Source of the DNA: Gemmatimonadota bacterium
GTDB taxonomy: Bacteria > Gemmatimonadota > Gemmatimonadetes > Longimicrobiales > Longimicrobiaceae
Direction: 5' to 3'
DNA: 15,003 nucleotides
Assembly (NCBI GenBank): GCA_019348475.1
Contig: JAHWJJ010000043.1
Coordinates: 1 to 15,003 of the forward strand
In this document: one piece after another, positions 1-8,017 of the stretch
Position numbering within the stretch: position 1 is the first letter of the stretch
How the letters are laid out: the number at the start of each line of letters is the position of its first letter
The notes under the pieces: generated by a model
What the model was told of the DNA's origin: nothing
Database searches by the model: none
What the model saw: only the letters and a program-made list of their open reading frames with translations
Position numbers and translations under genes: made by a program

Positions 1-586
1 GCTCAGGCTCAGCATCGAGAAGTTCCGCCGCGGCGCAACGAAGAGCGGGAATGTTGTTGTTCACGTTTCCGGAACCCAGGAACTGGACGCCGGGAACGGG
101 GCCGATCGCGGCGTTGACCGCGTCGGGGTAGGCGCAATTGATTACGTCAGGGCGGAGCCCCGCCGCCCCGACCGCGGCAAGCAATTCCGCAAGTAGCGCC
201 AAATGGCAGGGGAGGAAAGCTCCGATACCGGCACGCTCCAGCCCTCGCTGGACATCCGGCGGAAGCTTCGCGATTGCATCGGAGGGGTAGAGGGTTGCGG
301 CGTGTACGATCACACCGGGCCGGAAGTCAGACAGCCATTCGGCCAACCTCGCGGTATCAGAGAGCCCGATCGGAATCACTTCGAAGGCGGGCATGCGCCC
401 CGTCGCTGCCCAGGGGGAGAATCGGGAAAGATTGAGCCCCGGCCTCGGTCTCGAGTTCCTCGTGAGCACCCCGATCTTGCCCGAGAACCCGTGGAAGAGC
501 AGCGCTGTGAGGAACTGCGTCGCCACTTTCCCCGCTCCGACCAGGAGCAAGCGCGGCTCTTCGGAATCGCGCAGCTCCCTCTTCAT
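1..586 (-). CDS. Rossmann-fold NAD(P)-binding protein, C-terminus cut by window edge
   Basis: An open frame of 195 codons runs from an ATG at 586 to the left edge without a stop. The N-terminus holds a dinucleotide-binding signature, LLLVGAGKVATQF at about residues 13-25 (GxGxxA after a hydrophobic strand). A VIVHAA strand follows near residue 92, then an INCAYPDAVNAAI...GSGNVNNN stretch (about 149-178), which recalls the central part of malate/lactate-dehydrogenase-like and related NAD(P)-dependent enzymes. The ATG overlaps the stop of the upstream UppS-like gene as ATGA, so the two are almost certainly one operon and translationally coupled. Codons are less GC-rich at third positions than in the ABC transporter genes, hinting at transfer or a specialised cluster. 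The substrate is unknown; the fold is likely, the exact enzyme class is not shown. Confidence 0.8.
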   Translation of the reverse strand, partial: MKRELRDSEEPRLLLVGAGKVATQFLTALLFHGFSGKIGVLTRNSRPRPGLNLSRFSPWAATGRMPAFEVIPIGLSDTARLAEWLSDFRPGVIVHAATLYPSDAIAKLPPDVQRGLERAGIGAFLPCHLALLAELLAAVGAAGLRPDVINCAYPDAVNAAIGPVPGVQFLGSGNVNNNIPALRCAAAELLDAEPE

Positions 587-1227
587 TCGCCGTGCCGCCT
601 CTGTCTGGATGCGAAGCTTCGAAGGGCGGCATGGAAGTGTCGGGCCGAGAAGGGGAGGAAGCTCTCATGAAACCAGAACTCGCTGCCGACGGACTGCCAG
701 AGCATGAACCCCCTCATCGACTTGGTCGAACTGGTCCTGATGACGAGGTCCGGGGCGGAGCAATCCCGGGTCGTAAGGTACGCCTCTACATCGCGCTTGG
801 CAAGTGGGAGGCCGCAGGCGCTGCTCGCGTTCCGGAGCGCCTGGATGACCTGCCGCTTGCCGTCAAAGGTTAGATAAATGTTCACGCAGGCCGCCGAAGT
901 CGCGACTCTCGCTACGTCCTGGTCAGATTCATGCACTGCCAACTCCATGTCGAGATCCAGGCATAGCCTTGCGACTGCGCCCCGGATCCGCTGCTGGCAG
1001 TATTCGAGCTCGAGCGCCCTGGGCAGCGACATCGTCCAGAGGGTCAATCTCTTGATTCCGGCGGCGCTGGACGCCGCGACGAGTGCCTTGATGCTCCGGA
1101 TGTTGCCCCAGAGGCCAAGGTCAGGTGCCAGGAGGCCGAGCCGCCAGTACAGGGGGAGGTCGAGGATCACGCCGACGTGCTCCAGCATGCTCGCCTGATT
1201 CGGGATGTCATCGCTGATCTTGCTCAC
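583..1227 (-). CDS. Divergent cis-prenyltransferase (UppS-like) family protein
   Basis: The 214-aa product from a GTG start matches the undecaprenyl diphosphate synthase fold along its length. HVGVILD at 17-23 corresponds to the HVAIIMDGNGRW region, LTLW at 61-64 to the LTLYAFS strand, NIYLTFDGKRQV at 116-127 to the NYGGR region, and PDLVIRTS...FMLWQ...SEFWF at about 159-186 to the C-terminal signature. The aspartate of DGNGRW (D23), the first arginine of the RTGGExR motif (R164) and the late Mg-linked glutamate (E183) remain. The GNGR loop is LPLY, and the Glu, second Arg and Ser of RTGGEHRIS are Thr, Ser and Arg. It may use an unusual substrate or act as a non-catalytic partner. The GTG is preferred because AAGGA lies 12 nt upstream; ATG at 1188 is an alternative, and the frame stays open to 1635. 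Confidence 0.8.
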   Translation of the reverse strand: MSKISDDIPNQASMLEHVGVILDLPLYWRLGLLAPDLGLWGNIRSIKALVAASSAAGIKRLTLWTMSLPRALELEYCQQRIRGAVARLCLDLDMELAVHESDQDVARVATSAACVNIYLTFDGKRQVIQALRNASSACGLPLAKRDVEAYLTTRDCSAPDLVIRTSSTKSMRGFMLWQSVGSEFWFHESFLPFSARHFHAALRSFASRQRRHGE

Positions 1228-2489: not shown

Positions 2490-3257
2490 TCAGGCGGGCC
2501 AGCGCCAGCGGCCGCCAAGGACGGCGCCGGCTACCTTGCCCACCGTGGACGCATCCGGGCGAAAGCCGCGCTTCCAGTACTTCACCAGGCGCCGCATGGC
2601 GATGGGGGGATAGCCCAGTTGATTGGCGCGCAGCCGGCCCTCCATCAGGTCCGTCCAGGTGTAGCGGCCCACGTGCAGGTCGCGGCCGTCCATTACCATC
2701 TGGCACACCGTGTAGTCCGCCAGGGCCAGGATCTCCTGGGCCGACGCACGGCTAGAGACGCCGGAGAGCTGGATCAGGTCGCCGTTGGGCGCGCGAAAGT
2801 CAACCGCCACCAGCCCCGGCCGCGTGGCAAGCGCGTGCAGGTACAGCAGCATTTCCTCCTCCGGAAGCGCGGACAGGTCGGGGACGGGGTTATAGATGCG
2901 TTTACGCCGCCTGTCCCACGGCGAGCCCTTGAGGGAGAAGCACTTGGGGACGTAACCGGCGCGCAGCAGCCGTACGGCCGTACGCTCCAGCGCCGCGCGG
3001 CTCTCAAAGAACAGGTCGAAATCGCCCGGGTTGTTCTCGGGGCCAAGCTGGCCGCACAGCCAGCGCAGCAGGCTTCCGCCCATCAGCCAGCAGCCGCCGC
3101 CCAGAAAGTGCGCGTGGGGAATGTCCGGAAGGCCCAGCGCGTCGCGCACCCGCTCGACGGGGAGGCGCATGGACGCCTCGGTGACCGACCCGCGCGCGTA
3201 GGGGGCCACGAGCGCGCGCAGGCGGTCCGCCTGCGCGGCGCCGACGGGAGCGATCAT
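2490..3257 (-). CDS. Nucleotidyltransferase-fold protein of unknown function
   Basis: The 255-aa product contains HFLGGGCWLMGGSLLRW at about residues 50-66 followed by NPGDFDLFF at about 76-84, the G-rich helix and DxD of the nucleotidyltransferase fold (D79 and D81). The C-terminal half carries ADYTVCQMVMDGRDL and a basic AMRRLVKYWKRGF segment. I associate this layout with uncharacterised nucleotidyltransferase-like proteins of phages and accessory regions, but I cannot name the family. ATG at 3257 has AGGAG 11 nt upstream; the open frame extends further up to 3539, but that part is arginine/proline-rich and not protein-like. The next gene on the same strand is also a nucleotidyltransferase, 119 bp downstream, so the two may be co-transcribed. 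Confidence 0.75.
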   Translation of the reverse strand: MIAPVGAAQADRLRALVAPYARGSVTEASMRLPVERVRDALGLPDIPHAHFLGGGCWLMGGSLLRWLCGQLGPENNPGDFDLFFESRAALERTAVRLLRAGYVPKCFSLKGSPWDRRRKRIYNPVPDLSALPEEEMLLYLHALATRPGLVAVDFRAPNGDLIQLSGVSSRASAQEILALADYTVCQMVMDGRDLHVGRYTWTDLMEGRLRANQLGYPPIAMRRLVKYWKRGFRPDASTVGKVAGAVLGGRWRWPA

Positions 3258-3333
3258 TCCGGACAAATCTCCTGCGGAAACGGAGCGACAAGGGGGAGCG
3301 CGCCGACACAAATATCTATCGCTTCTCCGCGAG

Positions 3334-3371
3334 AGGCAAGCCGCGCGCGGCACGCGCGCGGCTTGCCTTTT
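3334..3371 (+). terminator. Perfect 15-bp hairpin followed by four T
   Basis: AGGCAAGCCGCGCGC (3334-3348) pairs perfectly with 3354-3368 around a 5-nt loop and is followed by TTTT on the plus strand. An outer inverted pair, CGCGAGAG (3328-3335) and CTCTCGCG (3377-3384), overlaps the inner stem, so two alternative foldings exist. Its form is that of a plus-strand intrinsic terminator, but no plus-strand gene lies to its left. It sits about 75 bp upstream of the minus-strand gene starting at 3257, so a regulatory or insertion-remnant role is possible. Confidence 0.5.
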
Positions 3372-3399
3372 GGCATCTCTCGCGTTGCCACGCAGAAAC

Positions 3400-3687
3400 C
3401 CGCAACCTCTTTTCGCGCCACCGCGAGGCGCGCCTCTGCTGCGGGGCCGAGCGCCGGCTGAACCAGCTGGCGGCCGACTTTCCGGCGAGGCCCGCGGCCT
3501 GTGCCGCTTCGGCAAGCTGCTGCACGAAGGCACCAGCACGCTTGGTGAACCTGCTGGTGGGCGCGGCGCTCCCCGTGCGGCGGGTGCCGCTGGAACCCTT
3601 TCGCACGCCGCTGACGCCGGGCTGGACCGCTACCTTCGCGACCCGCTGCTCAAGGGGGTACTGGGCGCGGATGCATGGGCGCGCTGA
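3400..3687 (+). pseudogene. Frame-broken remnant of an unrecognised gene (C-terminal end)
   Basis: No single frame looks coding here, but high third-position GC hops between two plus frames. AERRLNQLAADFPA is in one, GLCRFGKLLHEGTST in the other, VNLLVGAALPVRRVPLEPF back in the first, and LDRYLRDPLLKGVLGADAW in the second, ending at the TGA at 3685-3687. Joined, they give about 90 residues of plausible protein C-terminus. I do not recognise the family. At least three frame changes are needed, so decay is more likely than one sequencing error. Confidence 0.4.
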
Positions 3688-4118: not shown

Positions 4119-6011
4119 TCATGGATGTGACGTCGGTACCTTGTCGTACGTGTGGTTATGCCCCGGCGCGGGGTGGGCCGCGGCGGCGAAACGCGCTTCC
4201 TGTCGGGCAGACTGCAGGCGGTGGAAGCGGGCATACATCCCGCCCAGCGCCAGCAACTCCGCGTGGGTCCCCTCCTCCACCACCCGGCCCCCGTCCAGTA
4301 CGACGATGCGGTCGACGGACCGCAGCGTGGCCAGGCGGTGGGCGATCACCAGCACGGTGCGCCCCTCCAGCGCGGCCTGCACGGCCGTCAGGAGCCGCGC
4401 CTCCGTCTGCGTATCGATGCTGGCCGTGGGCTCGTCCAGCACCAGGACGGGGGGCGAGCGGTAAAGGGCGCGCGCAAAAGCCAGCATCTGCCGCTCGCCC
4501 ACGGAAAGGTTGCCGCCGCCCTCCGCCACGGGGGCGTCCAGGCCGCCTGGGCGCTCGCCGAACCACTCCAGGGCGCCCACGGCCGCCAGCGCCTCGCGCG
4601 CCCGCTCCCGGTCCGGCGCGCCCGCGCCGGCGGCCACGTTCTGCAGCACGGTGCCCGCGTACAGCACCACGTCCTGCGGCACCACGGCGAACCTGGCCCG
4701 GAGCGCCTCGCGCGGGACGGTGCGCACGTCCTGCCCAAAGACACGGACGGTGCCGGCGTCCGGCTCGTACAGGCGCAGCAGCATGGCCGCGATGGTGCTT
4801 TTTCCCGATCCGGTGGGCCCCACGAGGGCCACGCGCTCGCCCGGCATCACCCGCAGCGAAACGCCGCGCAGCACGGGCGTTCCCGGCGCGTAGGCGAACT
4901 GCACCCCCTCCAGCTCCAGGGCGGGCACCGGCGCACGAGATCCGGCCGGGGCTTCGGGCGCGGCGCGGGGGCCGGGCGCGTCCTCTTCGCCGGCGTCCAG
5001 CAGGGCGAAGATGCGGTCGGCGGCGGCCAGGGCGGACTCCATCTGCCCCTGCCGCAGCATGGCGTTGCGGATGGGGAGAAAGAACATGTCCAGGTAGATG
5101 ACGAACGCCACCATCGTGCCGAACGAGACCGGCTCCCCCGTCACCCGCACGGAGGTGTACCACAGCACGGCCGCCAGGCACACGCCGAACATGGTTTCCA
5201 CGAGCGCGTCCATCACGGCGCCGGCGCTGATGGTGCGGCGCACCGAGCCGTAGTGGTGCTCCGCGATCGACTCCAGCCCTTCGACGGCCTGTCGCTCGCG
5301 CCCGTAGCTCTGCACCACGGACACGCCAAGCACGTGCTCGCCCACGAACGCCCCCAGCCGCGCCGCCCACACCCGCTGGTGGCGATACGCTTCGCGAAAG
5401 CGCCGGCGGAACCAGGTGACCCCCAGCGCCGCCACGGGGACGATGGCCAGGGCCACCAGCGCCAGCCGCCAGTCGATCAGCAGCATTACGACGGTGGCGC
5501 CGGTCAGCCGGAGGGCGTCGCCCGGCACGGTCAGGGTGCCGGAGGTGAAGAGCTCGCCCAGCGAGTCCACGTCGTGCGTGAGGTTGGCCACGAGAACGCC
5601 GCTCTCCGTGCGGTCGAACATCGCGAGGCGCCGCGTCTGCAGGAACGAGAACAGGTGCTCGCGCAGGTCCGCCACCGAGCGCGCGCCGGCCAGCGCAAGG
5701 CAGAGCATCTGCGGATACAGGATCAACTGCTCGCCGATCACCACGATCCCCAGCAGTACTCCCGCGCGGACCAGCGCGCCCGTGCCCCCCTGCGAGGCCA
5801 GGCCATCCAGCCCGTACTTCATCACCAGGGGGCGGACGAGGGCCAGCAGCGCCCCCGCCGCCATGAGCCCGAACGCGAGCGCCAGCAGCCCCGCGCGAGG
5901 GCGCAGGAAGGGAAGGAACCGCGCGAGGATGCGCAGGTCCATCCGCAGGTCCGCCTCCTGCCCCGGGGTGCCCGGCGGCATCGGCACCGCCGTACCCGCT
6001 GCCGCGCTCAC
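4119..6011 (-). CDS. ABC exporter half-transporter, second subunit (catalytic-site Walker B intact, signature LSVGE)
   Basis: The 630-aa protein has an N-terminal type I exporter membrane domain (about residues 28-330; helices around 40-62, 83-105, 168-200, 275-312) and a C-terminal ATPase domain. Motifs are Walker A GPTGSGKST (398-406), Q-loop VVPQD (443-447), signature LSVGE (502-506), Walker B LVLDEP with E527, and H-loop H558. The signature departs from LSGGQ, as in the second subunit of MdlA/MdlB- or BmrC/BmrD-type heterodimers, while the Walker B glutamate is kept. The GTG start overlaps the stop of the upstream subunit (GTGA) and has a GGGGG ribosome site 5 nt away, so the pair is coupled. 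Such pumps expel drugs, lipids or peptides across the inner membrane; the cargo cannot be told. The C-terminus ends in a His-rich tail. Confidence 0.93.
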   Translation of the reverse strand: MSAAAGTAVPMPPGTPGQEADLRMDLRILARFLPFLRPRAGLLALAFGLMAAGALLALVRPLVMKYGLDGLASQGGTGALVRAGVLLGIVVIGEQLILYPQMLCLALAGARSVADLREHLFSFLQTRRLAMFDRTESGVLVANLTHDVDSLGELFTSGTLTVPGDALRLTGATVVMLLIDWRLALVALAIVPVAALGVTWFRRRFREAYRHQRVWAARLGAFVGEHVLGVSVVQSYGRERQAVEGLESIAEHHYGSVRRTISAGAVMDALVETMFGVCLAAVLWYTSVRVTGEPVSFGTMVAFVIYLDMFFLPIRNAMLRQGQMESALAAADRIFALLDAGEEDAPGPRAAPEAPAGSRAPVPALELEGVQFAYAPGTPVLRGVSLRVMPGERVALVGPTGSGKSTIAAMLLRLYEPDAGTVRVFGQDVRTVPREALRARFAVVPQDVVLYAGTVLQNVAAGAGAPDRERAREALAAVGALEWFGERPGGLDAPVAEGGGNLSVGERQMLAFARALYRSPPVLVLDEPTASIDTQTEARLLTAVQAALEGRTVLVIAHRLATLRSVDRIVVLDGGRVVEEGTHAELLALGGMYARFHRLQSARQEARFAAAAHPAPGHNHTYDKVPTSHP

Positions 6012-7798
6012 GAGACCCCCTGCGCGGCCAGCGCGGGCTCCGCGCCGCCCGCGTCCGGCTCGTGCCCGTCCTGCTCGCGCACCAGGGCGGCGTAGGCGCC
6101 GCCGGCGGCCATGAGGGCGTCGTGCGTCCCCGCCTCGGCCACGCGGCCGCCGTCCAGCACCAGGATGGCGTCGCAGCGGCGCGCCGCGGCCGTGCGGTGC
6201 GTGGCCAGCACGAGCGTGCGCCCGCTCGTCCATGCCCGCATCTCCGCCAGCACCCGCGCCTCCGTCTCCGCGTCCACGGCCGAAAGGGGATCGTCCAGCA
6301 CCAGCACGGGTGCGGCGCGCGCCATAGCCCGGGCGAGCGCGACCCGCTGCCGCTGGCCGCCCGAGAGCTGCACCCCCCACTCTCCCACGGCGGTCTGCAG
6401 CCCCAGGGGCAGCGCCTGGGCCTCGGCGAGCACCTGCGCGCGGGCCAGCGCGTCGCGCACGGCGGCGCCGGCGGCGGGGGTATCGGGATCGTCCAGCCCG
6501 TAGGCGGCGTTCCGCTCCACCGTGGTGGAGAAGAGGAACGCGTCCTGGGGCGCGTACGCGATGCTCCGCCGCACCTGGTCCAGGGGCAGGTCGCACATGT
6601 CCACTCCATCCAGGAACAGCGACCCCGGCGGCGCCGCCTCCAGGCGGGCGAGCAGGCGCACCAGCGTGCTCTTGCCCGAGCCCGTGCGCCCCAGCACGGC
6701 CAGGGACCCGCCCGGAGGAACGCGAAAAGACACGTCCTGCAGCACGGCCGCGCCGCCGTGCCGGAACGTAAGGCCGCGCGCCTCCACCTCGCCGCGGACC
6801 GACTGCAGCGGCGGGTGCGTTCCCCCGGCGATCTCGGGGACGGCCACGAACACGGCCTGCATGCGGTCCATGGCCGCGCGGCCCCGCTGTACCACGGCGG
6901 CGACCGTCCCCAATCCCATGAGGGGCCCCATCAGCCGCAGCAGGGCCACCCAGAACGCGGCGAACTCGCCCCAGGACAGGGTGCCGGACATCACCATCCA
7001 TCCCCCGTAGCCGAACACGCCCAGCCCCGCGAGCGACGCGACGCCGGCGAGGGCCGGCATCATGGCCGCGCGGACGCGGGAAAGGGCCACCAGCGCGTCG
7101 TGGTGGTGGCGGTTGGCGGCGGCGAACCTCGCGCGCTCCGCCTCCTCCAGCCCCAGGGCCCGGACGGCGCGCACCCCGGCCAGGCTGCGGAAGGCCTGGC
7201 CGCTGAGCGCGCCCATGCTTTCCTGCGCCTCGTGGTGCCGCGCGAACAGGCGCTGCGCCAGCAGCTTGCGGGTAAGGGCGAGCCCCGGCGCCACGACCAT
7301 GGCCGCCAGGGTGAGGCGCCAGGAAAGGTGCAGCATCACCGCCAGGGCGCTCACCATCCCGCACACGGAGTACACGATGCCGTTCACCCCCAGGCTCAGC
7401 ATCCCCCGCACCTGCGCCAGGTCGTGCGTGGCGCGGCTCATCGCGTCGCCGGGGGGCATGCGGCGAAAGAAGCCGGGTCCCTGGTTCAGCATCCGCTCCA
7501 GCAGCAGGGCCCGCATCCGCCGCTCCGCGCGGGCCGCGGCGGTAAAGATTTGCAGCCGCGACGACACCCGGAGCGCCGCGGCGGCCAGCGTGGCGACCAG
7601 CACCCACTGCGCGGCGCGCATGCCGGCCGCCGCGTCGCCCGCGGTAATGCCGTCCACGGAGGCGCGGACGAGCAGGTCGCGCGCGGCCAGCACGGCCTGC
7701 TGCGCCACGATCGCCGCCGCGCCGCCGGCGTACAGGGGCAGGTAGCGCAGCAGCCAGTCCCGCGGCCGCGGCGCCGCCGGAAGGGGTGCGCCCCTCAT
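6008..7798 (-). CDS. ABC exporter half-transporter, first subunit (Walker B Glu replaced by Asp)
   Basis: The 596-aa protein has a membrane domain (about residues 15-320) and an ATPase domain. Motifs are Walker A GRTGSGKST (370-378), Q-loop YAPQD (415-419), canonical signature LSGGQ (478-482), Walker B LVLDDP with Asp503 where the catalytic Glu normally is, and H-loop ATHR with H534. An Asp here is the hallmark of the subunit that builds the degenerate ATP site in heterodimeric exporters such as TM287/288, BmrC/BmrD and MdlA/MdlB. ATG at 7798 is chosen because GAGG lies 4 nt upstream and the protein then begins shortly before the first membrane helix; the frame stays open to 7942 without convincing coding character. 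It is the first gene of a two-gene operon with the overlapping gene 4119-6011. Confidence 0.93.
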   Translation of the reverse strand: MRGAPLPAAPRPRDWLLRYLPLYAGGAAAIVAQQAVLAARDLLVRASVDGITAGDAAAGMRAAQWVLVATLAAAALRVSSRLQIFTAAARAERRMRALLLERMLNQGPGFFRRMPPGDAMSRATHDLAQVRGMLSLGVNGIVYSVCGMVSALAVMLHLSWRLTLAAMVVAPGLALTRKLLAQRLFARHHEAQESMGALSGQAFRSLAGVRAVRALGLEEAERARFAAANRHHHDALVALSRVRAAMMPALAGVASLAGLGVFGYGGWMVMSGTLSWGEFAAFWVALLRLMGPLMGLGTVAAVVQRGRAAMDRMQAVFVAVPEIAGGTHPPLQSVRGEVEARGLTFRHGGAAVLQDVSFRVPPGGSLAVLGRTGSGKSTLVRLLARLEAAPPGSLFLDGVDMCDLPLDQVRRSIAYAPQDAFLFSTTVERNAAYGLDDPDTPAAGAAVRDALARAQVLAEAQALPLGLQTAVGEWGVQLSGGQRQRVALARAMARAAPVLVLDDPLSAVDAETEARVLAEMRAWTSGRTLVLATHRTAAARRCDAILVLDGGRVAEAGTHDALMAAGGAYAALVREQDGHEPDAGGAEPALAAQGVS

Positions 7799-8017
7799 CC
7801 CGCCTCGGGGTGCACCCCGAGCGCCACCCGGCCGATGTACCGAATGCACCAGTTCCCCCGCTCGACACTCATTATGGCCCTTGTGTATCCGACGCTCGGG
7901 TGTGGCAGCCAGGTGCGTGCCTCGTGACAGATTCCATGACAAGCAGATGAATAGGCTACGAAATCCGATTGCCTCTCCCAGGCTGCTCGTTGGGGCTCCA
8001 AGCGTGCTATGTCTTGA

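Follow-up and report, generated by a model that had tools for sequence, protein, structure and literature searches.

What role could be played by a protein whose predicted fold is that of a cis-prenyltransferase, and in which residues of both diphosphate sites have been replaced? The question is raised by a gene at the left end of the window, by which we mean the whole stretch of DNA analysed, the entire 15,003-base contig C377 of a draft genome of 4.08 Mb (504 contigs, 77% complete). On the minus strand its frame is open from a GTG at 1227 to a TGA at 583, over 214 codons, and the GC contents of its three codon positions (0.595, 0.474 and 0.809) follow the pattern of a coding frame. An alternative start, the ATG at 1186-1188, coincides with the residue at which homologue P0004 begins. 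At 583-586 the gene's stop and the start codon of the frame that follows (2-586) share an ATGA, an arrangement that suggests translational coupling of the two. The product of that frame, P0002, carries a GxGxxA motif near its N-terminus, and its single-sequence model is of low confidence (pLDDT 52). Searches for P0002 homologues beyond itself gave nothing among 4410 candidates or in 20 further genomes from the taxonomic family, and no Pfam family matched at its cut-off. Further into the window, the minus-strand frames at 1690-2409 and 2490-3539 appear nucleotidyltransferase-like by eye, with no Pfam match, and 4119-7942 on the same strand is an ABC exporter gene region, in which 6008-7942 has matches to both ABC_membrane and ABC_tran and the frame adjoining it looks by eye like a second exporter.

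Table 1. Coordinates of the features discussed, in the window unless locus L035 (contig C104) is given.
Feature	Position	Strand	Description
Cis-prenyltransferase homologue P0001, presumed non-catalytic	583..1227	-	214 aa, GTG start
Former S1 diphosphate loop	1138..1161	-	DLPLYWRL replaces DGN(G/R)RW, residues 23-30
Former S-x-(D/E)-N segment	1012..1029	-	reads SLPRAL, residues 67-72
Former S2 (IPP) site	709..738	-	RTSSTKSMRG replaces RTSGEQRLSG, residues 164-173; Arg164 kept
C-terminal RXG motif Arg211-His212-Gly213	589..597	-	standard spacing, one residue from end
Overlapping downstream gene P0002	2..586	-	195 aa read, ends at contig edge
C104 cis-prenyltransferase P0159	L035:7103-7885	-	catalytic residues kept, RXG two residues late
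Lower-GC gene cluster, contig C104	L035 3791-9642		one strand

An earlier note on this DNA had described P0001 as an UppS-like protein in which the fold survives, and had named the lack of such a fold, or a pseudogene, as grounds for giving up that description. The description holds on both counts. PF01255 matches P0001 at E 2.3e-20, only over residues 95-213, and the structure predicted for the single chain is recognised in fold searches as a cis-prenyltransferase, which places the protein in the superfamily; the frame is open and is common to three homologues. NUS1 was absent among the 50 matches listed in either fold search, a result that is uninformative either way. The three close homologues (P0004-P0006, 61-69% identity) stand apart in the protein database search, in which the next match falls from 265 to 76 bits. 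They lie on contigs of 1.2-1.7 kb, and they too have open frames with the same residue changes. Since the changes are common to three database homologues, they are not the outcome of chance.

Which residues have been exchanged? As a reference we used 155 proteins, comprising 152 database matches and three paralogues from the same genome. All 155 keep D26, R30, N74, R77, R194, E198 and R200; N28 and E213 are kept in 154, H43 in 146 and S202 in 144. The catalytic motifs of UppS and Z-isoprenyl diphosphate synthases (DGNxRW, S-x-(D/E)-N and RT(S/G)GExRxS) are retained in this set with few exceptions and are missing from P0001 and its three homologues, E198 and R200 being replaced in all four. The comparison bears out the substitutions that the earlier note had read from the letters: DGNGRW has become DLPLYW, the Glu, second Arg and Ser of RTGGExRxS are Thr, Ser and Arg, and the GHxxG and SxENW stretches are gone, both having been replaced. 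Asp23, Arg164 and Glu183 are retained and correspond, we assume, to positions 26, 194 and 213 of E. coli UppS; the latter two are the phosphate Arg and the Mg-linked Glu that were said to remain. The catalytic Asp, said to remain as well, does so in P0001, but two of the three homologues (P0005 and P0006) have Glu at position 23, where a carboxylate is thereby maintained. The equivalent residue of human DHDDS is D34, and variants with A, E or N in its place are about 5- to 20-fold less active (PMC7573591). An RW follows the S1 loop in all three homologues, so that R30 may persist there, shifted by one. The altered segments are themselves conserved, LPLY, SLP and T-K-x-M being identical in the four family members. 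Conservation among the four is higher in the C-terminal half (68 of 103 columns invariant) than in the N-terminal half (45 of 95), where the S1 loop lies. Two features had been overlooked, namely the RXG tail, which is retained, and the ATGA shared with the following gene.

How widespread is this family and where does it come from? In a search with a four-member profile (7999 candidates scored, 570 matches, 120 of them listed) the score drops from 420 to 97 bits, and the nearest matches to the family among those listed are, where named, bacterial isoprenyl transferases. At a threshold of 1e-12 the profile has matches in 13 of 395 phylum genomes; a family-level score is reached in the own genome only (423 bits, the next best being 56). 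A scan of genome_contigs with P0001 alone gave 27 pattern matches, no relative among them, and a scan with the four-member alignment gave nine loci of 29-36% identity, all nine actinobacterial by title. Members of the window family were absent from the results of both scans, which may not have covered the genome that the window comes from. We also built a tree of 68 rows: the four family members, three own paralogues, 48 database matches (45 of them drawn at random), 11 relatives and two plasmid sequences. The family (100/100), on a stem of 3.42, is placed within a 54-row clade (100/100) of database matches together with a cis-prenyltransferase of the same genome that is encoded on contig C104; the named members of this clade are largely actinobacterial. 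The tree resolves neither the order inside the clade nor whether the C104 protein is sister to the window family; both of these are long branches, the tree program warned of long branches, the bootstrap had not settled, and long-branch attraction is possible.

What does the C-terminus add? All four family members carry the RXG motif at the standard position. The standard spacing (+17) occurs in 168 of the 172 proteins examined, most of which were found through the window protein itself, and in all 15 of a group made up of the 11 relatives, the two plasmid sequences and two other own genes. In the C104 protein the motif (RLG) comes two residues late, at +19 instead of +17. Three otherwise canonical-looking database cis-prenyltransferases also depart from the standard: P0072 has its RXG at +14 and a shortened tail, and P0060 and P0079 have no RXG, their C-terminal tails being shortened or altered. 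One human enzyme consists of two halves, DHDDS, which is catalytic, and NUS1 (NgBR), which is not. In PMC7573591 the RxG tail of NgBR is described as crossing the interface and helping to form both DHDDS sites, the cavity of NgBR itself as collapsed, and yeast Nus1 as being without a canonical RxG. MM_0014 is active without RXG (PMC8131916), and the plant proteins CPT4 and CPT5, without RXG, require LEW1, which has it (PMC13247534). Given the activity of MM_0014 and the tail of yeast Nus1, an RXG neither proves nor excludes a role. With replaced substrate-site residues and a retained C-terminal RXG, the window family has the features of an NgBR-like functional class, in which RXG is not universal.

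Profile scores point in the same direction. The four-member profile scores human NUS1 at 37.3 bits (positions 52-214) and DHDDS at 19.1; P0006 alone gives 28.2 and 14.7 bits, and P0001 alone gives 25.0 bits for NUS1, DHDDS falling below the E 0.001 cut-off. The order is reversed in three controls, namely the own UppS encoded on C319 (NUS1 24.2, DHDDS 160.7 bits), the canonical P0008 (30.5 and 111.8) and the C104 protein (17.4 and 94.3). The better NUS1 score may in part come from the mere loss of the active-site half. The entry 6jcn, which we take to be yeast Nus1, was not among the family-profile matches at E 1, although a search with the own UppS does match it, at 19.3 bits. Most bacterial enzymes outscore NUS1 when the family profile is used, the exceptions being 3ugs and 2d2r. 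As the nearest named matches are bacterial isoprenyl transferases as well, we rejected the idea that the window protein is an NgBR/NUS1 orthologue by descent; its likeness to NgBR, if real, would be convergent.

Based on these observations, we propose a model in which the window protein is the non-catalytic partner of some cis-prenyltransferase, a reading that we judge slightly better than evenly balanced. The earlier note had offered an enzyme with a new substrate or an NgBR-type partner; the partner option is now the better supported, because residues of both diphosphate sites are replaced, the C-terminal half and the RXG are kept and NUS1 scores above DHDDS, and the new substrate ranks lower and remains a rival. 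The protein would have kept its fold and C-terminal half while giving up substrate binding, and with it catalysis. The C-terminal half forms the dimer surface in the cis-prenyltransferase family, and through this conserved half the window protein would dimerise with a catalytic cis-prenyltransferase. Its RXG tail would then reach across the interface into the active site of the partner, as that of NgBR does in DHDDS, and the partner would be stimulated; the product of such a pair is likewise conjectural. Against a partner role stand the kept Asp/Glu23, Arg164 and Glu183, unneeded in a dead subunit. The family is known from four proteins.

Which protein might be the partner? Besides that of the window, three PF01255 genes are present in the genome, on C319, C323 and C104. 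The check for a second, canonical uppS, recommended earlier, turned up canonical-looking genes on C319 and C323; the former adjoins a cdsA-like frame, probably cdsA itself as its translation reads. The likeliest partner would be the C104 cis-prenyltransferase, another paralogue being less likely. Its gene belongs to a cluster of lower GC than the flank, with a family-2 glycosyltransferase, a CDP-alcohol phosphatidyltransferase, a HAD hydrolase, P0160 and an amine-oxidase-like protein, which reads as an isoprenoid-lipid biosynthesis cluster. P0160 has DDxxD-like motifs by eye and no Pfam match, and a PF00348 search found only a gene on C42. The C104 and window contigs may belong to one gene cluster: strand and low-GC ends would fit the right end of C104 meeting the left end of C377, yet the last 400 bases of the one and the first 600 of the other share no word of at least 13 bases. 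GC3 is 0.81 in the window gene, 0.75 in its neighbour and 0.745-0.84 in the C104 cluster, against 0.92-0.97 in uppS, cdsA and the C323 paralogue and 0.91-0.97 when the MFS, ABC and glyoxalase genes are counted with these; the argument from composition is weak, because three other window genes have values of 0.79, 0.82 and 0.85. The C104 cis-prenyltransferase (at E 1e-40) and P0160 (at E 1e-5) were each found in one of the 395 phylum genomes, the own, so that co-occurrence cannot be shown. Tentatively, and with doubt prevailing, we picture a two-subunit enzyme in which catalysis would stay with the C104 protein, whose RXG is displaced, and the window protein would contribute the tail and no catalysis, both encoded in one acquired isoprenoid-lipid cluster and having arisen from the short-chain Z-isoprenyl synthase group independently of NgBR/DHDDS. 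The C104 protein may also work alone, since it still has an RLG, only shifted.

The residues that speak against a dead subunit would find a use in a remodelled enzyme, which through the kept Asp/Glu, Arg164 and Glu183 would bind a new substrate, such as a non-diphosphate isoprenoid or an altered donor or acceptor. Irregular cis-prenyltransferase homologues, in which the use of acceptors has changed, would be a parallel. We regard this as rather unlikely. The carboxylate at position 23 and the identity of the three altered segments in all four members are in keeping with it, as is the plant lavandulyl diphosphate synthase (LPPS), which the family profile matches at 46.8 bits over 13-215, above NUS1; some homologues are also known to couple irregularly or to carry out O-prenylation (PMC8131916 and PMC7839719). 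It is harder to reconcile with the replacement of residues in both diphosphate sites at once and with the lesser conservation of the half that carries the S1 loop, and the profile matches cyclolavandulyl synthase (CLDS) at 19.3 bits over 159-214 only, with isosesquilavandulyl synthase (Mcl22) not among the matches at E 1. The shared altered motifs would also suit a homodimeric, non-enzymatic protein that binds isoprenoids or regulates, paired with no cis-prenyltransferase, and so would an overlapping neighbour of no recognised kind; we hold this to be improbable, as the RXG tail, an element of the active site, is kept in every member. Decay of a cis-prenyltransferase gene copy heading for loss would account for the many conserved residues replaced and for the confinement of the family to one of 395 phylum genomes. 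Against it stand three homologues whose frames are open and which share the changes, the coding-type codon composition and the ATGA overlap, and we give it very little credence.

What would a non-catalytic partner mean? The arrangement of a catalytic and a helper subunit is known in animals, plants and archaea, and precursors of dolichol and rubber are made by heteromeric cis-prenyltransferases. Bacterial enzymes are placed among the homodimeric cis-prenyltransferases in one review (PMC7839719). Among the matches listed from the open-licence literature, with subscription journals mostly outside it, no title or abstract start reported a bacterial heteromeric cis-prenyltransferase. If our proposal is true, the two bacterial proteins, of about 200 and about 260 residues, would be a simple model in which to study what a dead subunit contributes, how an RXG acting in trans affects the length of the chain and how a division of labour of this kind first arises.

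Among known systems, the nearest canonical relatives are the Rv1086-type short-chain Z-isoprenyl diphosphate synthases and related, largely actinobacterial, isoprenyl transferases of the well-supported clade; these synthases keep the catalytic residues, whereas the window family, on its long stem, has replaced most of them. The lavandulyl, cyclolavandulyl and isosesquilavandulyl diphosphate synthases illustrate a cis-prenyltransferase fold with changed chemistry, and LPPS matches the family profile lengthwise. The heteromeric pair MM_0618/MM_1083 of Methanosarcina mazei (PMC8131916) is a prokaryotic precedent for a two-gene cis-prenyltransferase, archaeal and likened here by description alone. 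NgBR has a membrane-anchored N-terminus that is not seen in the 214 residues read for the window protein. The sequences closest to the window family are those of most bacterial enzymes, NUS1 being more distant, and its partner is a candidate. With NgBR/NUS1 and LEW1 the window protein shares a cis-prenyltransferase fold, as predicted, replaced substrate sites, an RXG one residue from the end and a sequence likeness that is greatest in the C-terminus.
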